Part shown: positions 3,064-22,390 of the stretch, one piece after another
How positions within the stretch are numbered: the stretch's first letter is position 1
How the letters are laid out: every line of letters begins with the position of its first letter
Source: a virus
Strand: one strand, 5' to 3'
Length of the DNA stretch: 22,404 nucleotides
Virus record (IMG/VR): IMGVR_UViG_3300025921_000070
Span: 1 to 22,404 of that record
The notes under the pieces: model-generated
Seen by the model: the letters and a program-made list of their open reading frames with translations, nothing else
What the model was told of the DNA's origin: nothing
Database searches by the model: none
Made by a program: the position numbers and the translations under genes

Positions 3064-3401
3064 TAAAAGTCTGTAAGTGCCGCCCTTCTGATACCACTTC
3101 CTGTGACGACATAGATGTAGTCATCGTCTGTCCACATTGTTCCAAGTGCCAAACTACCTGCGGAATTGTTGGCGGGTGTTGAATGGCTTGACACGACAAT
3201 GGAATTTGAAGTGACGATGGTCGCTTGGATTGTGTTCGACGTGACATTGGAGAAAAGTTGAGCGACCGTCGAATGCTTAGTAATATAAGGGTTGGTAGCG
3301 TTATTGGTTGTGTTGGCACTCAGAATCATCAGAGCGTCCAATGCCTTTGGAGCACTGCACGCCTGATAACTTGAGACTTTAGCAGCGGTGTTAGCAGCCA
3401 T
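3063..3401 (-). CDS. probable virion-associated protein, 112 aa
   Basis: Starts MAANTAAKVSSYQACSAPKA and is rich in Ser, Thr, Ala and Asn with very few charged residues, the composition of small beta-rich phage structural or decoration proteins. The C-terminal part GTMWTDDDYIYVVTGSGIRR resembles the end of short structural proteins in marine T4-like phages, from memory only. The start overlaps the end of the upstream endonuclease by 11 bases and the stop is coupled to the next gene. It probably once sat directly after the virion protein at 4195-5049 before endonuclease 2 entered between them; that is inference. Confidence 0.6.
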   Translation of the reverse strand: MAANTAAKVSSYQACSAPKALDALMILSANTTNNATNPYITKHSTVAQLFSNVTSNTIQATIVTSNSIVVSSHSTPANNSAGSLALGTMWTDDDYIYVVTGSGIRRAALTDF

Positions 3402-4140
3402 TAATCACTTTCTTTTTCCGCGCTTCTAATTGGCGCTTTCTGTATTCAGGGTCTTGCCAAAGAAGTTTCACTTTATTCGATTGGTTCTTTATATAATCTG
3501 ATGTTTGGCATGTTAATTTACGAGCTTCTAAACTATGTTTTCTGTATTCAGGGTCTTGCCAAAGAAGTTTCATTTTTTCTGAATTTATTCTTCCTATTCG
3601 CTTACGCTTTTCAGTCGGAATCCAATCTTCTTTGATAGCCTTTAGACTTTCAGATCGTTTCTTATTACTTTCGGCGGAATGTTTCTTTCCAAGCATTCCG
3701 CGAGGGTGATCACCGTTCCACTTCTTTCCATAGAAGTAATTGTTCTCCCCACTATTTTCTTCACTAAGTCGCTTTTTGTATTCATCTGAGTGAATAGGTT
3801 TACCTATTTTACTCTTTGAAATTTTTTCTCTAATTGACCTTGTGTCTGGATTAGCTGACCAATGACCCCAATGATGATTACGAATGTTGTAATATCTCTT
3901 GCGCAATTCCTCAGGTTTGATCATCTTCAAATAATGATATTCAGCTTCCAATAGTTCCTCACGGTTGGTATAAACTCGCTTCAATATCCGACGTTTGAAA
4001 TCAGTAGGGCGATGTTTGTATCCCTGTTTCATCCATTTAGAGGAACAGATATATCCATCATTTTCAGTCCCCCAATGACATCCTACATAATAACGTTTGT
4101 GTTTCTTATCGAACCAAAGGTAGACAAAGCCGTATTCCAA
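3391..4140 (-). CDS. GIY-YIG homing endonuclease 2 (Seg-like)
   Basis: This 249-aa paralogue of endonuclease 1 has the same N-terminal GIY-YIG core (GFVYLW, RYYVGCHWG, MIKPEELRKRYYN). After it come NUMOD3-type motifs (KIGKPIHSDEYKKRLSEE, GKKHSAESNKKRSES) and then two tandem copies of a 34-residue unit containing LLWQDPEYRK...LEARK at the C-terminus. Those tandem copies give a 34-base exact direct repeat in the DNA (3437-3470 and 3539-3572). The start is TTG at 4138-4140 with GGAG 8 nt upstream, inside a hairpin arm. It lies between two apparently structural genes, as expected for a mobile endonuclease inserted in an intergenic site. Confidence 0.88.
   Translation of the reverse strand: MEYGFVYLWFDKKHKRYYVGCHWGTENDGYICSSKWMKQGYKHRPTDFKRRILKRVYTNREELLEAEYHYLKMIKPEELRKRYYNIRNHHWGHWSANPDTRSIREKISKSKIGKPIHSDEYKKRLSEENSGENNYFYGKKWNGDHPRGMLGKKHSAESNKKRSESLKAIKEDWIPTEKRKRIGRINSEKMKLLWQDPEYRKHSLEARKLTCQTSDYIKNQSNKVKLLWQDPEYRKRQLEARKKKVINGC
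3437..3572 (-). repeat. 102-nt tandem coding repeat, two copies
   Basis: A 34-base block is repeated exactly at 3437-3470 and 3539-3572, a period of 102 bases or 34 codons. It encodes the WQDPEYRK unit of endonuclease 2 twice. The in-frame spacing and exact match suggest a recent internal duplication of a DNA-binding module. Confidence 0.8.
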
Positions 4141-6264: not shown

Positions 6265-7233
6265 TTATGACTTCCGTTTAATTAGTGATGTGAGTTGTTT
6301 GATTACACCATTTGGTTTGGGTGCAAGACGAGGTGTGATATCAACACTGTTTCGAGACGGCAAATTTTTAAACGGCCCATCAGGATCAGCTTTGATATCC
6401 GCTAAGTGTCTTAATCTTCGTTGAGGTAGAGGATGTGGAGCATGAGGCGGTATTGGTGATGTTGTAGGGGCGTTGAATGTTGCTTGCACCTTCTTCAACA
6501 CATCAAGCAAGTCGGCTGTATCCTTGGCTTGATTCTTTTGCAGCTTTGACTTCACTTCCTTGGTAATCTGCCGACGTAATTTCATATGCGCTTGTTTTGC
6601 TTCGAAAGCGCGTCCGTGTGCCGTCAGCGTCTTGGCTGCGGCGGACTTAGACGGTATTCCAAGCGTGCGAATAATTTTCTTGGCCGTCGAGTGGTCCATT
6701 CGGGCTTTGCCGTGCAAAACGTCGCCAAGAGTTTTCGAGGCTTCTTTCTTGGAACCATAGACTTGACTACGACGGGATGCGAGTTCAGCACGGGCTTGCG
6801 CGCCGAGGGCATCCTTTCGTCGTGCTAAACGACCCAGTGATTTATTGGAGGTTTGTTTGGTAATTTTGTATGACTTGGCTTCCGAGACCAAATCTTCATC
6901 AAGTTCCATCGCGCGTCCTCCAGCGATAAACGAGTTTACCCGAGCAAACGCCCATTGTGACGGAGTTATGTTGGGTTTGCTTGCTTCAACTTGGGAGGTA
7001 ACGTAATCGACAAGGCCGCGTTCCCATACTTCACGGAGAAGTTCAAATGGGAGTTCAGAATTTACGGCTTTTTCTTTGAGGGATTGTTCGATCTTTTTTG
7101 GGTCAGGATCGCACGGATCAAAATTAATATGCGGATTCTTTCCGCGTTTTCTAACGCCTTTAACAGATATAGGCTCAATTTTTCGAACGTGTTTCTTGTT
7201 TTCCACTACTTTGGTTTCCCTTGGGCTGAACAA
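6265..7233 (-). CDS. basic hypothetical phage protein, probable head-associated, 322 aa
   Basis: A conserved-looking segment at about residues 60-110 reads LPFELLREVWERGLVDYV and ITPSQWAFARVNSFIAGGR; the pattern W-x-RG...TPxQWAxARVNSF recurs in phage and giant-virus proteins of unknown function. The rest is strongly basic and Ala/Lys-rich, with a proline stretch (TSPIPPHAPHPLPQRR). Start choice is uncertain: the longest frame opens with TTG at 7231-7233 with no SD, while a GTG at 7204-7206 has AAGGG upstream and sits well downstream of a late-promoter-like box. It abuts the 380-aa gene (TAA-ATG), suggesting one late unit of head proteins. Confidence 0.6.
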   Translation of the reverse strand: MFSPRETKVVENKKHVRKIEPISVKGVRKRGKNPHINFDPCDPDPKKIEQSLKEKAVNSELPFELLREVWERGLVDYVTSQVEASKPNITPSQWAFARVNSFIAGGRAMELDEDLVSEAKSYKITKQTSNKSLGRLARRKDALGAQARAELASRRSQVYGSKKEASKTLGDVLHGKARMDHSTAKKIIRTLGIPSKSAAAKTLTAHGRAFEAKQAHMKLRRQITKEVKSKLQKNQAKDTADLLDVLKKVQATFNAPTTSPIPPHAPHPLPQRRLRHLADIKADPDGPFKNLPSRNSVDITPRLAPKPNGVIKQLTSLIKRKS

Positions 7234-8935: not shown

Positions 8936-9944
8936 TCGTTAATATTTTCTTTTCGAGTGTCACGTTCACCCCGCCTTCTGATCGACTACCAGCGCGTCCG
9001 TTTACCTCGATGTTGGCGGCTCCAAATTGAAAACAGCACCTTCCTTGTTTCTTATTTAGAGGAATCGGTGTGTCAAACATTTCGAGATAGTTGTTCACGT
9101 CATTCATGTAGTCATAGACTTTAATATTGGCAGTTGTATCAGGCTGTATTTCGGCGTCGAACATAACCGTAGAAAGAACATTAGGGTCGTTTGGCTCAGG
9201 AATGTTTGTGAGAACACGAAATACTCTGTGTTGATGGTCAGGAAGTTGACTGACAATAGTATAAAATTCGTCAGCCATTTCTGAATTAGAACCAGAGGAT
9301 GATTTTAGTAATACCTTATAAAATTCTGTGATAACTTCACGTTCAGGGTGTTCAATTTCTCCACGTTTAATCTTACGAATAGTCGAGCGCTGATCACTAT
9401 TCAACGATTCGAGTTCTTCGCCAAATATCGATTTGATCAACGGCTGATTGCGAGCAACAAAAGCATCGGCGTCATCAATCTTGTCGTCAATCAACGTGGC
9501 GATTTTCTGAGGGAGGCCACTCGACACTCCGTAGGCATCTTTGTATATTTCATCAAGTTTCTGGGCCAAAGTAACAGGGTGTGAGGTGAATACCTTAACA
9601 CGACGATTGGGGGCACCATACTTGAGAGAGATGCCAAACCAAGTATTGTCAAATGCCAGAACAATATCGGCTGGTGATTCTTTACCAGTTAACTCCTTTA
9701 CACCTTTTTTCTGTTTGCGCCCCATACAGTGAGCTTCCTTCACAATACCAAAAGGTTTGACAAAATCTACCAGCACATCGGCCACTACAGTAGCATCACT
9801 CCAAGTTTTGAAACAATACTGTTCATCCAAGTCAGTTGTTATAGGCTCTGACTCATCAAAATTCCACGAGCATAATCTATTTACATTATAGGTTACAAAT
9901 TCTTCACATAGAAAGCCACGTTTCGCGATTACAGTTCCGCGCAT
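8811..9944 (-). CDS. nuclease-like phage protein, 377 aa
   Basis: Around residues 88-108 the sequence ESPADIVLAFDNTWFGISLK has the spacing of a PD-(D/E)xK-like active site (acidic residue in a strand, then a hydrophobic strand ending SLK), with Ser in place of the usual Glu/Asp. It is followed by KVFTSHPV. I infer a restriction-endonuclease-like fold with low certainty. The last conserved-looking part is about residues 315-340 (GRCCFQFGAANIEVNGR); the final 40 residues are a charged tail read through the start of the next gene, so the natural end may once have been earlier. ATG at 9942-9944 has a good GGAG SD. Confidence 0.6.
   Translation of the reverse strand: MRGTVIAKRGFLCEEFVTYNVNRLCSWNFDESEPITTDLDEQYCFKTWSDATVVADVLVDFVKPFGIVKEAHCMGRKQKKGVKELTGKESPADIVLAFDNTWFGISLKYGAPNRRVKVFTSHPVTLAQKLDEIYKDAYGVSSGLPQKIATLIDDKIDDADAFVARNQPLIKSIFGEELESLNSDQRSTIRKIKRGEIEHPEREVITEFYKVLLKSSSGSNSEMADEFYTIVSQLPDHQHRVFRVLTNIPEPNDPNVLSTVMFDAEIQPDTTANIKVYDYMNDVNNYLEMFDTPIPLNKKQGRCCFQFGAANIEVNGRAGSRSEGGVNVTLEKKILTNVRFQKISNGKEDQGEPDRDRRSQDQAKGISSIPGGPGRQN
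9053..9060 (-). promoter_or_regulatory. late-promoter-like box inside upstream gene
   Basis: TCTAAATA on the minus strand (7 of 8 to TATAAATA), the same octamer found before both GIY-YIG genes and the HNH gene. It lies in the 3' part of the nuclease-like gene, 118 bases before the ATG of the probable internal head protein (8935). Confidence 0.45.
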
Positions 9945-11469: not shown

Positions 11470-11641
11470 TAGATTGATCCTTTACATATATGAAAAAGCG
11501 TGGCGTCTCGCCAGCGAACCCGCATCCTGAGTTCAAACGGCTGGCCAAAATTTTAGCTTCTTCTTTGGATTTCAAAATTTGGATGACAAAGCCAGTTGAG
11601 TATTCAATGACCTTCGATCCGTCGTATTTATATTTCTTCAT
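11447..11641 (-). CDS. hypothetical protein, 64 aa
   Basis: Begins MKKYKYDGSKVIEYSTGFVI. I prefer the ATG at 11639-11641 because it forms a 4-base ATGA overlap with the stop of the upstream gene; a longer start at 11653 adds MVVV. The segment SRLNSGCGFAGETPRFFI looks like a short motif common in small T4-like phage proteins (LN-x-G-x-GF-x-G-x-TPxFF) of unknown function. A perfect TATAAATA octamer lies over codons 3-6 (11625-11632, minus strand) and may be chance or a late promoter for the next gene. Confidence 0.6.
   Translation of the reverse strand: MKKYKYDGSKVIEYSTGFVIQILKSKEEAKILASRLNSGCGFAGETPRFFIYVKDQSIDIPKSN
11625..11632 (-). promoter_or_regulatory. TATAAATA octamer, possible late promoter
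   Basis: Exact T4 late-promoter core on the minus strand, inside the coding start of the 64-aa gene. It would direct transcription into the sheath-like and methyltransferase genes. Because it encodes Lys-Tyr-Lys-Tyr codons it may be coincidence. Confidence 0.3.
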
Positions 11642-11916
11642 AACCACCACCATTCAAAAAATACCATGACAGGCCAGTTCTTTCCAGGAAAGATGAATCC
11701 CGTTGTATACCACGTATAGGCATCATACCACCGATAACGTTTATCGGCTGGCCAATACCACGGTTTGCAGGCCCGTAACCACTTCCTGCGATTAGCATTG
11801 CGATATTCAAGCCAGCGGTCGTAGGCATCCCAATAGCATTCAACTCCACCAGGAAGATCAAAATCGTAATCGTCTCGATCGGGCTTCAAAACTTGTTTAT
11901 TTGAATGGGTAGTCAT
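11638..11916 (-). CDS. hypothetical Trp/Tyr-rich protein, 92 aa
   Basis: Start taken at the ATG at 11914-11916 (MTTHSNKQVLKPDRDDYDFD); a TTG nine codons earlier would increase the overlap with the helicase gene. It is unusually aromatic: YWDAYDRWLEYRNANRRKW and CKPWYWPADKRYRWYDAYT in the middle, and FFEWWWL at the end. No family is recognised. The gene overlaps the 3' end of the helicase by 20 bases and is coupled downstream by ATGA. Confidence 0.55.
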   Translation of the reverse strand: MTTHSNKQVLKPDRDDYDFDLPGGVECYWDAYDRWLEYRNANRRKWLRACKPWYWPADKRYRWYDAYTWYTTGFIFPGKNWPVMVFFEWWWL

Positions 11917-13267
11917 CGTCGTTTTCCAAGTCTCGTTTGCCAAATTCGGTCAGGTCCATGATTGGGCCAGACTCTGCAATATCTTCCTTAGGGTCTTCCA
12001 AGTCATAGAGGCGCATCTTCGGGCGATCCAAACCGACCACAAACTTGTTCATGTAGGACACATCACCGTCGCGGTTCTTCAACTGTTTGAAGAACACATG
12101 ATCGAGGTTTTCGTCCTTTCCAGGCATCATGGCCACGAGCAAGTCGCAAGTGTGAGGTAGACCCATCGACTCTGATGTGTTCTCCATTTCAATATCAGAG
12201 TTCTTGAAGCCTTCACGATTGACCTGTGTCGCCGTCACGATAGGACATTCATACTCGACACCAAGGCCGCGCAGTTCTTCGGCAATGGCCTTGACATACG
12301 TGTAGGAATTGACTGTGCCACCCATCTTGAGGCGTGACGACAGACAAATGTTGATGTAGTCGATATAAATGATATCGGGAACAAACTTCTTCTTGAGCTT
12401 GGCTTCCTGTAGAACATGACGAAAGTGATTGACACCAGCCGATGCCGTAGGAAATTCACGAATGATCAACTTGCCAGCAATCGAGGCTTTTTTACGGGCA
12501 AGCTTGTCCTTGAACATTGCCTTGGGATAGCCGCGTAGTTCCTTGATAGGAATGTCCAAGAGATTGGCGTCAATACGCATACCAATCTTCTCAGCAGCCA
12601 TTTCCATAGTGATGTAAAGGACATTGTAACCTTGCTCCATCTGAAAGGCAGCTTCGTTCGCCATGAGACGAGATTTGCCGCCACCTGTAGGGGCAATGAA
12701 ACATATGAGCGATTTGGTTGGTGCTCCTCCATCGGTGATAGTGTTGAGAGTCTTGAGACTCCATGGAATGCGCTTTTCATCCTTGTTATAGAAATCAAAG
12801 CGTTCCATGGCATCTTCGATGTAATCGTGGCCTATGCGATTATCGAACGTGACGGCCAGCGCATCCTCAAAAATTTGAGTGATAGCACCTCGATCAAGGT
12901 CTGATTTGCCGCCGCGTATCTCGATAGCCTTGGAAAGTGCATTGTCGAGTGCCTGTTGCTTGCACCATTCCTCGGTCTTATCGACCAACCATTGTTCGTT
13001 GGTTTCTTCTTCGGGTCGCAACTCGATCATCAACTCCTTGGCATCGCGGAAAACGTGTTCGTTGATGCCAGTGGTATTATTCAGTTCGACAAGCAGAGCT
13101 TCCCGCGTCGGGAAAGTGTTATACTTGAGAACGAATGAATTGAGGATATCGTAAGTTAGGCGATAATGTTTGGTTTGAAAGTATTCAGCCTTGACGAACG
13201 GTAAGACTTTTCGAGCATAGGTCTCGTTGAAGACGAGGTGACTTAATACGATTAGTGAAGTGTCTAT
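11897..13267 (-). CDS. 41: replicative DNA helicase, T4 gp41-like (non-standard start)
   Basis: DnaB-type hexameric helicase that unwinds the fork and recruits primase. Walker A FIAPTGGGKSRLM lies at about residues 190-202 and Walker B IIYIDY at about 299-304, followed by the DnaB-like SYTYVKAIAEELR and TATQVNREG segments. The shortest standard frame begins at TTG/ATG 13028-13033 (378 aa), but the same frame continues open for 78 codons upstream and encodes LIVLSHLVFNETYARKVLPF...AEYFQT, matching the T4 gp41 N-terminus (IILSHLIFDQAYFSKVWPY). With this part it is 456 aa against 475 in T4. No ATG, GTG or TTG occurs there; ATA at 13265-13267 has GGAG 7 nt upstream and overlaps the TAG stop of the preceding gene. 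Confidence 0.88.
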   Translation of the reverse strand: MDTSLIVLSHLVFNETYARKVLPFVKAEYFQTKHYRLTYDILNSFVLKYNTFPTREALLVELNNTTGINEHVFRDAKELMIELRPEEETNEQWLVDKTEEWCKQQALDNALSKAIEIRGGKSDLDRGAITQIFEDALAVTFDNRIGHDYIEDAMERFDFYNKDEKRIPWSLKTLNTITDGGAPTKSLICFIAPTGGGKSRLMANEAAFQMEQGYNVLYITMEMAAEKIGMRIDANLLDIPIKELRGYPKAMFKDKLARKKASIAGKLIIREFPTASAGVNHFRHVLQEAKLKKKFVPDIIYIDYINICLSSRLKMGGTVNSYTYVKAIAEELRGLGVEYECPIVTATQVNREGFKNSDIEMENTSESMGLPHTCDLLVAMMPGKDENLDHVFFKQLKNRDGDVSYMNKFVVGLDRPKMRLYDLEDPKEDIAESGPIMDLTEFGKRDLENDDDYPFK

Positions 13268-13446
13268 TCTTTGACTCCAAAATATTGTATGAACTCAGAA
13301 TCGGTCATGGTTTTCAACTGATCGAGTTCGGTTTCAAGATGTGTTTTGTAAATGTCGCGAATTTCTTCTACTGAATATCCAGCGGATTCGGTGGCAGGCA
13401 CAACGCGAAATGAACAGTTGCTATGGTATTTGAAGGAATATTTCAC
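13264..13446 (-). CDS. hypothetical protein, 60 aa, between uvsX and gene 41
   Basis: It starts with GTG at 13444-13446 in a 4-base GTGA overlap with the uvsX C-terminal gene and reads (M)KYSFKYHSNCSFRVVPATE...TDSEFIQYFGVKE. In T4 the gene between uvsX and 41 is gene 40; this ORF holds the same place but is shorter and I see no resemblance. It is one of only two ORFs in the window that end in TAG. Reading through would add three residues before a TAA. Its end overlaps the presumed AUA start of the helicase, so the two are likely translationally coupled. Confidence 0.65.
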   Translation of the reverse strand: MKYSFKYHSNCSFRVVPATESAGYSVEEIRDIYKTHLETELDQLKTMTDSEFIQYFGVKE

Positions 13447-13982
13447 TCGACTTCATCCTCTGTATCGAGTTCTCCATCATCTGTTCCATCATCTACATCT
13501 TTTGCCTTTCCGTAGCAGAACTCCTTCTTGACAGCTTCATCAAGCGTAGTCAGTAACTCAGTTGTCCAATACTTCTCAGGTTCAAGGCGCAGAGCCTTGG
13601 TCGTGACTTTCGTCCCGTCTGGTAGTTCCACTGAGAGTTTGGTGACAGGCTTAATTATACCATGTTTCAAGCCCAAATCCAATAGTCCATAGTATCGATC
13701 AAGCCCATCCGTGAAAGAAAGTTTGAGTTTGACTTCGATCTTCTCACGCGTCAGTCGCGACTTGTGCATCTTGACAGTAATGAAATTACCCCGCACAACT
13801 TTATCCTTGCCCGTGCCTTCGGCGTCTTGTGCCTTAGACAGGAAGATGATCGAACTTGCTGCGTACTTGAGGCCAGAATTATGCGTAATGATTCCATTAT
13901 CTAAAATGTAATGATGTGCGTCTTTCACAGTAATATCGTATACAGGGCAGGTTTCGATTTTTCTAATTCCCGTTATTCGCAT
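13443..13982 (-). CDS. uvsX: UvsX recombinase, C-terminal half with split-intein IntC
   Basis: Residues 1-35 are the C-terminal piece of an intein: block F VYDITVKDAHHYILDNG and block G IITHN, with the catalytic His34-Asn35, followed by Ser36 as the +1 residue. Residues 36-179 are the C-extein, SGLKYAASSIIFLSKAQD onwards, the part of RecA/UvsX after the conserved GG motif, ending in an acidic tail (DDGTDDGELDTEDEVE) like T4 UvsX. The ATG at 13980-13982 has an AAGGA SD, so it is translated separately and must be joined to the N-half by protein trans-splicing. It overlaps the HNH gene by 10 bases. Spliced exteins total 368 aa against 391 in T4. Confidence 0.88.
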   Translation of the reverse strand: MRITGIRKIETCPVYDITVKDAHHYILDNGIITHNSGLKYAASSIIFLSKAQDAEGTGKDKVVRGNFITVKMHKSRLTREKIEVKLKLSFTDGLDRYYGLLDLGLKHGIIKPVTKLSVELPDGTKVTTKALRLEPEKYWTTELLTTLDEAVKKEFCYGKAKDVDDGTDDGELDTEDEVE

Positions 13983-14656
13983 ATAATTTCCTTAATGTTG
14001 TATTTGTGCCAAAGATGTTTCTTGATTGAACATAATTGCACTCCTAATGCAGTAGAAACACCTAAATAAGAACCAATATCTATTTTCCGAGAAAGAGATA
14101 TTTCTTTACCATCGATAAAAATAATTTTCGTTCTGTGACTTCGGTATTTCGATAATTTGTCTTTGGTGTCTTGCGTATGTGTATGTTTCCAAAATGAGTT
14201 AGCTTCGCCAAATAACCTTCTATTACGCATTTTTTTAAGAGATTCCTCCGTGTGAGTTTCACCATAGAACGGATTATTTTCACCTTTGAAGCGATGGTCT
14301 CCGTAAAAAGGATTATTGGTTCCTGAAAATTCATCACGGATAGAAATTTTTATTTTTTCATATAAACGTCCATTTCCTATTCTGGTATATCCCGTTTTAT
14401 TATGAGAGCGACCCATAGCCACAAATGCATATGACATAGAACGTCTATGTTTTGGTTCAATTACCATTTTTAATAAAAGGGAATGAGCAATGAAATGTTC
14501 ACGGGGAGTTAAGAGGGCCTTATTTTCATTTGTATTCGGCCCCCCTAATGATCGAGGTATTATATGGTGTTTTTCATAAACATTTGGTAATTTACGCCGC
14601 TTCGCTTTCTCCATAATCTGATAGTAAATTTTCGTATATTTGTTGTCTAAGAACAT
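13973..14656 (-). CDS. HNH homing endonuclease inside the split uvsX
   Basis: A 227-aa protein with an HNH core near the N-terminus: YEKHHIIPRSLGG (about residues 27-39), conserved Asn in TNENKALLTPREHFIAHSLL (43-62). Downstream are NUMOD3-like repeats with NNPFYG twice (about 114 and 126) and TEESLKKMRNRR; the C-terminus ends in a NUMOD1-like DNA-binding region (RKIDIGSYLGVSTALGVQL). It sits exactly between the genes for IntN and IntC and presumably spread the split intein. Its 5' end overlaps the N-half gene by 65 bases. An AGGA SD is 5 nt before the ATG, and a TCTAAATA late-promoter-like box lies at 14687-14694. Confidence 0.88.
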   Translation of the reverse strand: MFLDNKYTKIYYQIMEKAKRRKLPNVYEKHHIIPRSLGGPNTNENKALLTPREHFIAHSLLLKMVIEPKHRRSMSYAFVAMGRSHNKTGYTRIGNGRLYEKIKISIRDEFSGTNNPFYGDHRFKGENNPFYGETHTEESLKKMRNRRLFGEANSFWKHTHTQDTKDKLSKYRSHRTKIIFIDGKEISLSRKIDIGSYLGVSTALGVQLCSIKKHLWHKYNIKEIICE

Positions 14657-15623
14657 CTAAATCCTGTCTAATATCGGCTACTTCGATATTTAGACATTCT
14701 GTATTCTTAGCCATATCCAGCATGTTCGCTACAGACATCCATTCTCCACTTACAAGAAATCTATGATTTCCTGAACATCTGACGGTATTACCATCATCTA
14801 ATGTCAATTCGTAAACATCTTTGTCGTTGAATGAAAATGTGTTAGTAACTGGTTTAGGTCCGAAGACTGTTTCGACTACCTCTCCAATTTTAATCTCCTG
14901 AATTTCCTTTGGTCCTGTGGGGGTTTTGATAAGCGTCCCCATTACCAAACATCCTCCCCCCATTTCCTTGGGTGTATAGTTGGCGTTTCCTTTGCCGATA
15001 GCGAGGTAGATGTGATTGGTGACTATCAGCGGGATACCAGCCTGAGCCAAGCGTAGTGTCAGGACACGGAAGACGCCCTTGAGAAGTTGTTGCTTGGTCA
15101 TGTCACGGGTATTTTCACCAGCCTCAGTATCCTTGACTTCCTTGTCGGATGACAACATGCCGAGTGAGTCAAGCACCATGATCAACGGCGGACGTTTGTT
15201 TTCGGCTACCTTTTCGTAGTTGCCAATGATCTTGAGAGCCATGGTGCGGAATTCTTCAATCGTCGCAGGCTCGGCAATCATCATGCGCTTGGTGTCAATA
15301 TCTCGATCAAGCAACATGTCTTTGGTGATCGCTGCTTCGGTATCGAAGTAGACAACTTGTGCGTCGGGATTGCTATCAAGGTGATACTTGGTGATGCCAA
15401 GGGCGATGAACGTCTTGCCTGTTGCTTCCTCGCCTGCGATGGCAGTCACCTTGTTTGTGGGGAAGCCTTTGAATAGTGAGCCTGAGATTACGGCGTTGAG
15501 CATTAGACAACCCGTGTCGGTATATCCCCCAATCTCTGCCGCGTTCTCACCATCGTCTGCAATTGAACCTGCGAACTTTGCTTTGTTGAATTCAGTTACA
15601 ATGTCTTGTAGAAATGATGTCAA
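14592..15623 (-). CDS. uvsX: UvsX recombinase, N-terminal half with split-intein IntN
   Basis: Residues 1-224 are the N-extein of the RecA-family strand-exchange protein: Walker A GEEATGKT (64-71), Walker B LIMVLDSLGML (147-157), and the DNA-binding loop region ending PKEMGGG. The intein begins at Cys225: block A CLVMGTLIKTPTGPKEIQ, block B with NTVRCSGNHRFLV including His287; IntN is 119 aa and stops at a true TAA. Start is TTG at 15621-15623; its SD (AGGAG) is 12 nt away, longer than ideal. The N-terminus TSFLQDIV fits other marine T4-like UvsX proteins. A mini-ORF repeating its first residues lies just upstream. Confidence 0.9.
   Translation of the reverse strand: MTSFLQDIVTEFNKAKFAGSIADDGENAAEIGGYTDTGCLMLNAVISGSLFKGFPTNKVTAIAGEEATGKTFIALGITKYHLDSNPDAQVVYFDTEAAITKDMLLDRDIDTKRMMIAEPATIEEFRTMALKIIGNYEKVAENKRPPLIMVLDSLGMLSSDKEVKDTEAGENTRDMTKQQLLKGVFRVLTLRLAQAGIPLIVTNHIYLAIGKGNANYTPKEMGGGCLVMGTLIKTPTGPKEIQEIKIGEVVETVFGPKPVTNTFSFNDKDVYELTLDDGNTVRCSGNHRFLVSGEWMSVANMLDMAKNTECLNIEVADIRQDLDVLRQQIYENLLSDYGESEAA
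14687..14694 (-). promoter_or_regulatory. late-promoter-like box for HNH endonuclease
   Basis: TCTAAATA in the context TGTCTAAATA on the minus strand, the same decamer as upstream of both GIY-YIG genes. Predicted start near 14681 gives a leader of about 25 nt carrying an AGGA SD before the HNH ATG at 14656. It lies within the IntN coding sequence. Confidence 0.5.
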
Positions 15624-18472: not shown

Positions 18473-20932
18473 TTATTGCAGGTCAGAGCTTGTGTTGGCA
18501 ACCAGAGTGTCTGGCGCTTGTTGCTCGACAGGAGCCGCCGCAGGATCAGTCGCAGGTGTTACGGTCGGATCAGAAGCGACCGCAGGTGTTGCGCTTGTAT
18601 CTGTCACAGGCGATGCTATATTGTCCGTAGTTGGTGCAGGATCAGCCGCAGGAGCCGCAGGTGCAACGTTTTGGTCTACAGATGCAGGTGCTACAGAGTC
18701 AGTCGCTGGAGGCGCAACTGTGGTTGCGTCAGCCGTCGCAGTATCTGTTGACGGAGCTACAGGTGGCGGCGTTGCTGAACTATCAACTGGCGTGGTTGAT
18801 TGTGCTTCGGCCGTCGCATCTACTTGAACCACTGGTGTACTTGGAACGTCAGCGGGCGTATCAGAAGATACTGGCAGGGGTGCTGCCACGTCGGTTGAGG
18901 TAACGACAGGTGTATCAGCGGCAACAACGGCCTTTGAAACATCTTTCGAAACGTCTACGCCAAGATCATCCAACTTTTTGTCGGTGTCAGGCGTTGTCGC
19001 CACCACGATATCGTGTTGGTCGGCGGCCGTGACGACAGGTGTCAGTGTCGCGTCGGCGGGAACTTGTCCCTGAGTATCCGAGAGCACGACCTTGTTGTCA
19101 TCGCTGACTGTTGCCTGAACGACCGATTGCAAGGTGTCAGGAACAGAGACCGTCACAGGTGCCGCGCTGGCATCTGCGCTTGGCTGAACGACAACATCGG
19201 CAGGTGCATTATCCTTGGTCGCTTCTGTTTGGGCAGGCGGCGGTGTCGGAAGCGTCACGCCAGCGGGTGCAAGTTCAATTGCATCCTTGGCCGATTGCAG
19301 AACGTCTACACCTTGAGCCTTCATATCGGCTTGGTGATCGGCGTCAACCGCAACAACCACGTCGGCATTGGTGTCAGGTGTCTTGGCGACAGTCGTGACA
19401 ACATTGTCCGAAACGATTTCATGAGTTGCATCAGATACCGTGACCGTGGCCTGAGGTTCGGCCGCCGCTGGATTAACGACGGGTTTCACGTCTGTTGCTT
19501 CGGCGGTTACAACTTGAGGAAGTTCCTTAGGAAGCTCGACAGTTGTCGTGGCGACGACAGGATTTTGGTCGTTGGTTAGGACAGGAACGGGCACATCTGG
19601 CGTGTGTGGCACATCAGGGGCCGCAGCTTGCACAGCTTGCGACAATGCTGCCGAAGGATCAACGCCAGCGTTGGTCAGAGCGTCGTGGGCGTCAGGAGAG
19701 ACGGCAGCAACAACATTGCTTGCCCCATCCTGAGTTACGACAGGAACCATGACGCTATCTTTTGGAACATCCGTTCCATCCGAAGGCGTAATTGCGACAG
19801 CGGGAACACTCCCAGAGTTGTCAGCTTGCACCGCTGGCGTGACATTGACGACAGGCGTCACGGTGTCAGGGACTTGAACTTCGACGGCAGGAGCGGTCGA
19901 ATCAGATGCGGCGACAGGAACAGGAATTGTGTTGGATACGACAGGTGCAGGATCAGCGGGCGCGACAGTTACGTCGGGATGATCGAGCGCGGCCGAGACA
20001 GCAGCGGGAACATCAATGCCAGCGCTGGCGGCAGTCGCGGCAGATGCGGGATCAACGGCGACAACCACGTCAGGCTTGTCAGGATCGGTCTTGACAACCG
20101 TCAGCGTTGAGTCGGGTGCAACACTATCCGTGGCAGGTGTGACCGTGACGGTAGCCTGAGGTTGATCACTTGAATTGCTAACAGGCGCATTGACGACGGC
20201 CGAAACCGTGGCTTGCACGACAGGTGGCACTACGGTCGGTGTGTTGACTGTGACCGTTGGTTGTGCAGTTGTGTCGGCGTTGACCGTGACCTGAGTTGTG
20301 TCGGCGGGCGCAGTATCAACAGGCGCAGTAGTAGGAGGGGTCGCTACCGCAGCCTGTTGATCTTCAACCGTTGGGAGTTCCAACGGGACTGCATCCGTGC
20401 TGTTGGGATCAGAACCCGCAGGCACCATAACAGGTGAACCCTTGGCGTCATACTCAACAGTGTAAGGTGTATCGGACTTGGGTAGAGGCCCGATAGGAAG
20501 CGTTGTAAGAGTTCTCGGTGAATTGGTGTCGTTGAAGACAACCGATAGAATGCCATCATCAAGATTGGCTTCCTTGAAGGCCAGATTATGTGCAACCAAG
20601 AACTTGGCAGACACTTTCCCGCCCGCAAGAATGCCTTGATGGAAGTATACATCACCATCCGATGATGCAGCATCAAAACCGACTTTAGTCGTTGCTGAAA
20701 TAGTCAGATGATCAGCGTCGAGCGTTGCGGTAATATCGCCACGATCTACACCTGTCAGGTCCAATTCAAGGACATAACCGCCATCAGCGGCCTTTTTGAT
20801 ATTATATGGCGGGATGGCCGTTACATCTTCCAGTGAGGTAGATTCATCTACACTCTTGATAAGATCGAGAACGGGATCAAATCCGATGCCGAGTTTACCG
20901 ACATATGAATCATACCCTCTTGATTGTGACAT
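18473..20932 (-). CDS. Hsp20/IbpA-like protein with long repetitive tail, 819 aa
   Basis: Residues 1-150 look like a small heat-shock protein of the IbpA type carried by many T4-like marine phages: VGKLGIGFDPVLDLI near the start, IPPYNIKKAADGGYVLEL opening the alpha-crystallin domain, and LDDGILSVVF near its end. Residues 155-819 are a Pro/Val/Thr/Asp/Ala-rich tail with almost no aromatic residues and no Cys. Within it a module of about 118 residues recurs four times (about 259-325, 378-445, 494-563, 614-678), each with D-x-x-LTxVV, VVAV and GVDV-x-x-A elements. Usual phage Hsp20 is under 200 aa. SD GGAG precedes the ATG. I infer a virion-associated or fibre-like protein; the chaperone assignment is from pattern memory. 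Confidence 0.75.
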   Translation of the reverse strand: MSQSRGYDSYVGKLGIGFDPVLDLIKSVDESTSLEDVTAIPPYNIKKAADGGYVLELDLTGVDRGDITATLDADHLTISATTKVGFDAASSDGDVYFHQGILAGGKVSAKFLVAHNLAFKEANLDDGILSVVFNDTNSPRTLTTLPIGPLPKSDTPYTVEYDAKGSPVMVPAGSDPNSTDAVPLELPTVEDQQAAVATPPTTAPVDTAPADTTQVTVNADTTAQPTVTVNTPTVVPPVVQATVSAVVNAPVSNSSDQPQATVTVTPATDSVAPDSTLTVVKTDPDKPDVVVAVDPASAATAASAGIDVPAAVSAALDHPDVTVAPADPAPVVSNTIPVPVAASDSTAPAVEVQVPDTVTPVVNVTPAVQADNSGSVPAVAITPSDGTDVPKDSVMVPVVTQDGASNVVAAVSPDAHDALTNAGVDPSAALSQAVQAAAPDVPHTPDVPVPVLTNDQNPVVATTTVELPKELPQVVTAEATDVKPVVNPAAAEPQATVTVSDATHEIVSDNVVTTVAKTPDTNADVVVAVDADHQADMKAQGVDVLQSAKDAIELAPAGVTLPTPPPAQTEATKDNAPADVVVQPSADASAAPVTVSVPDTLQSVVQATVSDDNKVVLSDTQGQVPADATLTPVVTAADQHDIVVATTPDTDKKLDDLGVDVSKDVSKAVVAADTPVVTSTDVAAPLPVSSDTPADVPSTPVVQVDATAEAQSTTPVDSSATPPPVAPSTDTATADATTVAPPATDSVAPASVDQNVAPAAPAADPAPTTDNIASPVTDTSATPAVASDPTVTPATDPAAAPVEQQAPDTLVANTSSDLQ

Positions 20933-21887: not shown

Positions 21888-21963
21888 TGGTGTCCCTGGC
21901 CAGATTCTAACTGGCATCGTCGCAGTTTTAGAGACTGCCGCTCTAACTTTGAGCTACGGGGAC
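21888..21963 (-). tRNA. tRNA with anticodon CUA (amber suppressor)
   Basis: A 76-nt cloverleaf with encoded CCA. Acceptor is GTCCCCG/CAGGGAC (one C-A mismatch at 6-67), D stem GCTC/GAGC with 7-nt loop AAAGTTA, and anticodon stem GCAGT/ACTGC with loop CTCTAAA. This gives U33 and anticodon CUA, complementary to UAG. The variable loop is 6 nt, T stem GCCAG/CTGGC, T loop TTAGAAT. G19 and C56, nearly universal, are U19 and A56 here, a compensatory pair. The loop differs from the neighbouring tRNA-Trp by one base. It lacks the special features of tRNA-Pyl (short 8-9 linker, tiny variable loop). The amino acid is unknown; A73 and G1-C72 are present. Confidence 0.8.
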
Positions 21964-22112
21964 TTAAACAAATCTTTGGTCGTCAGTTGACGTTCTTCGA
22001 CGTTCAACCATTGCAAAAAATCGTCTCGGGATATTTGGATTTTGTCTTTGTAAGAACCGTCCGAAACTTCAATAGTCAGATAAACAGAATCAAAACTATA
22101 CTCAAGACGCAT
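21954..22112 (-). CDS. hypothetical protein, 52 aa, between tRNA genes
   Basis: ATG at 22110-22112 has a strong SD (GAGGG, 5 nt). It reads MRLEYSFDSVYLTIEVSDGS...RDDFLQWLNVEERQ and ends SP at a TAG. That stop codon is made of bases 8-10 of the amber-suppressor tRNA gene. No family is recognised; beta-strand then helix composition suggests a small folded domain. Suppression of the TAG would extend the protein through the tRNA sequence for about 45 residues to a second TAG. Being one of two TAG-ending ORFs beside a CUA tRNA is notable, though overlap by chance is possible. Confidence 0.55.
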   Translation of the reverse strand: MRLEYSFDSVYLTIEVSDGSYKDKIQISRDDFLQWLNVEERQLTTKDLFKSP

Positions 22113-22128: not shown

Positions 22129-22202
22129 TGGCAAATGCGGTAGGAATCGAACCCACGTCTACTGATTTGGAGGCAGTCGTTCTACCATTGAACTACGCAG
22201 AT
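22129..22202 (-). tRNA. tRNA-Trp (anticodon CCA)
   Basis: A 74-nt cloverleaf with encoded CCA. D stem GTTC/GAAC with loop AATGGTA (G18 G19 present), anticodon loop CTCCAAA (U33, anticodon CCA), 4-nt variable loop, T stem GTGGG/CCTAC, T loop TTCGATT, discriminator G73 as in bacterial tRNA-Trp. The acceptor stem ATCTGCG/CGCATTT has two adjacent mismatches (2-71 and 3-70), and the pair 31-39 is C-U, so the molecule is weaker than a typical tRNA. Confidence 0.75.
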
Positions 22203-22208
22203 ATTAGT

Positions 22209-22282
22209 TGCGGGTGTGGGAAATGCTCGACCACGATTTCTGACGTATGAGGCCAGTGAGATAGACTTCTTCTCTAACCCGC
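22209..22282 (-). tRNA. degenerate tRNA-Met-like gene (anticodon CAU)
   Basis: Acceptor GCGGGT/ACCCGC, D stem GAGA/TCTC, anticodon stem CTGGC/GTCAG with loop CTCATAC (U33, anticodon CAU) and A73 can be drawn. The T arm is abnormal (GTGGT/CCCAC with a mismatch and a 9-nt loop), the D loop lacks GG, and no CCA is encoded. It ends six bases before tRNA-Trp. It may be a decayed or unusual tRNA-Met, or a tRNA-like element. Confidence 0.5.
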
Positions 22283-22289
22283 AATAAAG

Positions 22290-22352
22290 GGTGATGACGG
22301 GGAGGTGCGTTGTGAAAGGAGGTGATGCACCAAAGTTGGCCCCGTCATCACC
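22290..22352 (-). ncRNA. structured leader RNA with 16S 3'-end (anti-SD) mimic in its loop
   Basis: Downstream of a strong promoter the minus-strand RNA forms a perfect 13-bp stem (GGTGATGACGGGG, 22352-22340, with CCCCGTCATCACC, 22302-22290). Nested inside is a 5-bp stem GGTGC/GCACC (22331-22327 with 22308-22304) closing an 18-nt loop. That loop contains ATCACCTCCTTTC (22314-22326), the sequence of the 3' end of bacterial 16S rRNA including the anti-Shine-Dalgarno. The RNA precedes the tRNA genes, a position comparable to the small stable RNAs linked to the T4 tRNA cluster. No ORF is needed to explain it. Confidence 0.6.
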
Positions 22353-22356
22353 GAAG

Positions 22357-22364
22357 TATTTATA
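22357..22364 (-). promoter_or_regulatory. late promoter, exact TATAAATA
   Basis: A perfect T4-type late octamer on the minus strand, overlapping the -10 box of the sigma70-type promoter at 22362-22390. Late transcription would start near 22351, at the first base of the RNA hairpin stem. Confidence 0.5.
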
Positions 22365-22390
22365 ATACCAAATTACTCACTATTTGTCAA
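22362..22390 (-). promoter_or_regulatory. strong sigma70-type promoter for the RNA/tRNA cluster
   Basis: Minus strand: consensus -35 TTGACA (22385-22390), 17-nt spacer, -10 TATTAT (22362-22367) with extended TG. Predicted start about 22355, three or so bases before the hairpin stem. It is the best match to the host consensus in the window. Confidence 0.75.

Follow-up and report, generated by a model that had tools for sequence, protein, structure and literature searches.

The DNA analysed here (the window) is an entire IMG/VR virus record of 22,404 bases and represents a fragment of a T4-like genome. Its proteins include a family-B DNA polymerase, UvsX, the gp41 helicase, a primase and a protein with an Hsp20 domain, and the presence of a gp43-type polymerase, UvsX, gp41 and a gp61-type primase in T4-like order places the virus in the T4-like (straboviral/kyanoviral) group. 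The best named relatives of the polymerase are cyanophages (around 38%), and those closest to gp41 are the Sinorhizobium phages phiM7, phiM12 and phiM19 (around 50%); the polymerase–UvsX–gp41 order also occurs in phiM12. The fragment covers early and replication genes, with the late genes lying beyond it, and no capsid, terminase or lysis gene was identified among the window proteins searched. A search for close relatives found one, IMGVR_UViG_3300037312_000468 (hereafter G002), a 33.6-kb contig syntenic with the window whose orthologues are mostly 52–87% identical; the next gp41 stood at around 51–54%.

On the minus strand at 21888–21963, the window encodes a 76-nt tRNA with a CUA anticodon, detected by ARAGORN and matched by the Rfam tRNA model (RF00005) at 56.1 bits (E = 7e-10). 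Read 5′ to 3′, it comprises the acceptor strand GUCCCCG, a UA linker, a D arm of GCUC and GAGC around the loop AAAGUUA, a single G, an anticodon stem of GCAGU and ACUGC around the loop CUCUAAA, the variable loop GACGAU, a T arm of GCCAG and CUGGC around the loop UUAGAAU, the acceptor strand CAGGGAC, A73 and an encoded CCA. The cloverleaf is complete, with U33 and the CUA anticodon (CTA at 21931–21929) of an amber suppressor. Direct reading of the loops gave A14, A15, A16, G18, U19, U20 and A21 in the D-loop and U54, U55, A56, G57 and A58 in the T-loop, confirming that U19–A56 (21946 and 21908) stands in place of the G19–C56 elbow pair while G18 is retained. The sequence-only reading that we followed up had described both the cloverleaf, with its encoded CCA and CUA anticodon, and the exchanged elbow pair, and both descriptions held; it had overlooked a C6·A67 mismatch in the acceptor stem that is also found in G002. 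ARAGORN labelled the gene tRNA-Pyl because of its anticodon alone, and we rejected this assignment: tRNA-Pyl has one base between the acceptor and D stems, a 6-bp anticodon stem and a 3-base variable loop, whereas the window tRNA has two bases (UA), a 5-bp stem and a 6-base loop.

The suppressor gene ends an arrangement common to the window and G002, in the order hairpin, CAU tRNA-like sequence, tRNA-Trp, small open reading frame (ORF) and suppressor, all on the minus strand in the window. The tRNA-Trp (anticodon CCA; 22129–22202, ARAGORN; L002:9040-9114 in G002) has the normal G19 and C56, but 31–39, the bottom pair of the anticodon stem, is mismatched (C31·U39 in the window, C31·C39 in G002). 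Position 31–39 was mismatched in 8 of 18 aligned tRNAs, several suppressors among them. Such bottom mismatches are the type set aside in a study of 4-bp anticodon stems 'unpinned at the top', and we accordingly do not assign the tRNAs here to that kind (PMC13092985). The CAU-anticodon-loop sequence (22209–22283) scored 27.2 bits, below the Rfam cut-off of 29, and has degenerate D and T loops; inspection by eye showed a similar CAU sequence at the matching place in G002 (L002, around 8945-9033). Upstream lies a σ70-like promoter, TTGACA-N17-TATTAT with TG before the −10 hexamer (22362–22390), whose hexamers and spacing are identical in G002 and which probably drives the tRNA cluster.

Directly after the promoter, whose conservation sets the strand, a 13-bp hairpin (22290–22352; fold z = −7.5) displays the loop AUCACCUCCUUUC (22314–22326), which is identical to the 3′ end of 16S rRNA with its anti-Shine–Dalgarno sequence. 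Its counterpart in G002 has 16 bp and z = −5.2 (promoter and hairpin at L002:8847-8942); among all sequences searched the hairpin was conserved only in G002, and it matched no Rfam family. Shine–Dalgarno matches of at least 5 bases precede 24% and 17% of phage genes in this lineage, compared with 37% in T4-like loci. However, the value is equally low (20%, n = 10) for phiM12, whose examined stretch yielded no such hairpin RNA, and weak Shine–Dalgarno use is therefore no evidence for a role of the hairpin. We judge this RNA at least as worthy of follow-up as the suppressor tRNA.

The suppressor gene in G002 (L002:9420-9494) occupies the matching place, and this contig was retrieved through a neighbouring protein, independently of the elbow. 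Its acceptor and T arms are identical to those of the window tRNA, and the CUCUAAA loop, U19, A56 and the encoded CCA are all kept, whereas all five anticodon-stem pairs differ (GCAGU/ACUGC in the window, AUCCA/CGGAU in G002). Replacement of the whole anticodon stem with retention of U19, A56 and the loop indicates that the gene is maintained and is not decaying. Across the cloverleaf alignment 94% of cells were paired and 18 of 22 pairs showed two-sided changes, a level that none of 500 shuffles reached. Among 18 aligned tRNAs, each with a 7-base D-loop, the 19–56 pair was G–C in 13, U–A in five and mismatched in none; three of the five U–A rows (G001, L090 and L140) came from patterns that required both bases, and the window row itself had prompted the search. 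The suggestion that the double change at 19 and 56 marks a maintained, folded tRNA is thus supported by the lack of any mismatched 19–56 pair in this alignment together with the stem replacement in G002, and on the evidence of these alignments the gene is under selection for both structure and decoding.

Searching 2.9 million viral contigs for a pattern combining U19, A56 and CUA returned exactly two contigs, G002 and G001, the latter an unrelated 186-kb viral contig of whole-genome scale without a protein match to the window, whose suppressor is a third U19–A56 CUA example with stems unlike those of the window; the canonical-pair counterpart with CUA was present in 22 viral contigs. Scanning for U19–A56 with any anticodon gave 78 stretches, no more than a dozen or so of which fold as tRNAs; the others are chance matches, probably for the most part in coding DNA. 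Viral examples of this elbow with other anticodons include tRNAs for Gly, Thr, Ile and Pro. Across 84,980 cellular genomes, A56 together with a G-U-U-A D-loop matched five times, including Met and Thr tRNAs of Pacearchaeota, an Ala tRNA of Nomurabacteria and a Pro tRNA in a Flavobacterium metagenome-assembled genome (MAG), whereas in a single phylum 117 of 198 genomes contain the canonical counterpart pattern. From these counts, U19–A56 is rare and recurrent, is very rare in cells and extends beyond suppressors; we rejected it as a suppressor hallmark since Gly, Thr, Ile, Pro and Met tRNAs in viruses and in archaeal or bacterial MAGs share it. Possible intermediates occur among phage CUA tRNAs, with U19 opposite C56 in MT835556 and GG (G19) opposite A56 in L058. 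The term 'U19-A56' was absent from the open-licence papers searched, a scope that makes its absence no proof of novelty.

We then considered how UAG is used. The 29 window ORFs examined end 20 times in TAA, seven times in TGA and twice in TAG, in agreement with the earlier count of two TAG-ending ORFs (13264 and 21954) against about 26 others. That scarcity had been offered as a hint of recoding, which the comparison with T4-like relatives does not bear out: TAG ends 115 of 936 ORFs of at least 100 aa in 79 loci, and neither 2 of 29 (Fisher p = 0.57), 0 of 24 ORFs of at least 100 aa (p = 0.10) nor 4 of 62 for the window and G002 together (p = 0.22) is significantly lower, so we rejected TAG depletion as evidence. 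Both TAG-ending genes are conserved with their stops. The first (13264–13446, minus strand) encodes 60 aa, is 85% identical in G002 and ends at TAG in both viruses, with TAA following 4 and 7 codons later. The second (21954–22112, minus strand) encodes 52 aa, and 58 aa in G002 at 53% identity with the same TAG; this stop, as the earlier reading had not noticed, is U8-A9-G10 of the suppressor tRNA itself, so that the last bases of the small gene overlap the tRNA gene. We sought a conserved protein extension past the two shared TAG stops and found none, the frame through the tRNA not being conserved beyond the stop.

No in-frame TAG was present in 25 securely comparable window/G002 orthologues; 27 ORFs had matched, and two in the overlapping 11628–11943 region were left out, the stops in their alignments being most simply overlapping-frame or alignment effects. 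Reading TAG as sense raised ORF coverage of the window only from 0.945 to 0.968, and the ORFs still averaged 232 aa, so coding density is not clearly higher, as it would be under code 15. The cautious statement that recoding itself was not shown is thereby borne out, and UAG recoding is not supported in the testable early region covered by the 25 orthologues. Outside the window, G002 carries at 6275–7075 (plus strand) a 149-aa ORF ending in TAG and followed by 116 in-frame codons, a possible target of suppressor readthrough.

These results favour, at a probability of roughly 0.6, a selected and functional amber-suppressor tRNA in a T4-like virus whose code is otherwise standard, with partial readthrough of UAG expected in place of wholesale reassignment; because UAG is still an ordinary stop in the sequenced part, the tRNA probably suppresses UAG only in part and does not mark a new code. 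The suppressor would be co-transcribed with tRNA-Trp from the conserved upstream TTGACA-N17-TATTAT promoter. Host enzymes would then process it, a host synthetase would charge it, and at UAG it would compete with host RF1, so that readthrough is partial; we infer expression, charging and partial suppression from the gene and its setting. We read U19–A56 as a compensated swap for G19–C56 that preserves the Watson–Crick stack between the D- and T-loops and hence the L-shape, while altering the face contacted by RNase P, the ribosome and further factors. At the elbow, the 19–56 pair presents an exposed flat face that the ribosome and other factors use (PMC4810234). Against this reading stand the altered elbow, which might weaken handling by the ribosome, RNase P or EF-Tu, the C6·A67 mismatch, the restriction of the window to early and replication genes, and the lack of a conserved extension past TAG, which leaves no suppression target in view.

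The amino acid inserted can be approached through the identity elements. A73, G1–C72 and the remainder of the tRNA are unlike a Trp or Gln tRNA, and A73 and G1–C72 differ from the Gln-like U1 and G73 seen in L124 and L129. Under E. coli identity rules GlnRS prefers G73, and A73, U35 and G1–C72 fit mischarging of the LysRS type better; by those rules Lys is the best candidate, a guess that we make with low confidence. The CUCUAAA loop differs by a single base from the Trp loop CUCCAAA, a feature shared with E. coli su+7, a tRNA-Trp whose anticodon went from CCA to CUA; unlike su+7, the window tRNA has A73 in place of G73, another acceptor and T arm, and a changed elbow.

An alternative that we regard as unlikely is that UAG is recoded only late, in structural or lysis genes beyond the 22.4-kb fragment, with the tRNA acting as a code switch in crAss-like fashion. 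Recoding usually sits in late genes, and cases confined to late genes and accompanied by suppressor tRNAs are on record (PMC7886860; PMC11210395); the window, with its replication genes, is where such recoding would not be seen. Set against this are the TAG stops at conserved gene ends, the lack of significant TAG depletion, and the behaviour of G001, which has a similar tRNA: TAG is the stop of 27 of its 172 long ORFs, reading TAG as sense brings no gain in coding coverage (0.929 to 0.938), and the TAGs of its read-through ORFs lie mostly near the ends. In addition, no PCRF-family release factor was found in G001 or G002.

Less likely still, the suppressor may be aimed at the host, with UAG readthrough disturbing host proteins, including those of defence, and the phage tolerating the effect. 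Such an effect on the host has been suggested for suppressors without recoding (PMC7886860, PMC12386605), and maintenance of the gene without a visible phage target is consistent with it; against it, phage genes too end at TAG, and some lack a backup stop close by, the next stop being 8 to 116 codons away in G002. The notion that the locus encodes a tRNA-derived decoy or passenger that lost its translation role, its elbow relaxed along with its function, could draw on the changed elbow, the C6·A67 mismatch, the degenerate CAU neighbour and the elbow intermediates of other phages, but is improbable: the elbow change is compensated, the stems are intact and vary in a compensatory way, and the loop and encoded CCA are conserved in both relatives. 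Similarly improbable is the more novel reading that promoter, anti-Shine–Dalgarno hairpin, tRNA-Trp and elbow-altered suppressor make up one translation-takeover cassette, in which the hairpin RNA would act against Shine–Dalgarno-led host initiation and the suppressor, its elbow retuned to escape a host elbow factor or nuclease, against host termination.

Amber suppressor tRNAs without detected recoding are known from the Xanthomonas jumbo phage XacN1 (PMC5852040) and zeta crAss-like clade 8 (PMC12386605), the roles suggested for them being pre-adaptation to recoding or interference with host proteins, and suppressors without recoding are a standing puzzle of phage biology. Like them, the window virus has a CUA tRNA, no recoding found and no known targets; unlike them, it is T4-like, with a short tRNA cluster, a U19–A56 elbow and a suppressor gene conserved across two diverged viruses with its anticodon stem replaced. 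Code-15 phages (crAss-like and Lak, in which TAG encodes Gln) likewise encode a Sup-CTA tRNA (PMC11210395), but the 25 comparable orthologues here contained no in-frame TAG. The CUA tRNAs of Sinorhizobium phage Phosso, Cronobacter phage GAP32 and Synechococcus phage BUCT-ZZ01 (Kyanoviridae) share a near-identical CUCUAAA loop and anticodon arm with the window tRNA, whereas all have C56 and a D-loop GG. Two CUA tRNAs on a 176-kb contig (L004:1673-1966) carry the window's exact anticodon arm, GCAGTCTCTAAAACTGC, with canonical GG/C56 elbows. The novelty lies in the altered elbow pair and in its retention within a T4-like lineage; suppressor tRNAs in non-recoding phages were known. With a gene kept across diverged T4-like viruses while its anticodon arm was rebuilt and its elbow pair swapped on both sides, the window and G002 offer natural pairs for probing how 19–56 affects suppression, tRNA selection and cleavage by RNase P, and these bear on the benefit to a phage of suppressing UAG when its own genes still stop there.

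Other genes of the window showed further features. UvsX (13443–15623, minus strand) is split by an intein in pieces, with the N-extein and IntN at 14592–15623, a separate NUMOD3 endonuclease-like ORF at 13973–14656 (minus strand), and IntC with the C-extein at 13443–13982 (minus strand; junction ...THN|SGLKYAAS); uvsX of G002 is intact and has no intein at this junction. Two paralogous putative GIY-YIG-type endonucleases (2021–2614 and 3391–4140, minus strand), one with a NUMOD3 match, both use a TTG start after an identical 25-base leader, TGGAAACAATTATGGAGTTATTACT. Finally, 18473–20932 (minus strand) encodes an 819-aa protein in which the N-terminal Hsp20 domain is followed by a low-complexity tail of around 680 residues rich in Ala, Val, Pro, Asp and Thr, and which is 76% identical to its G002 counterpart over most of its length.
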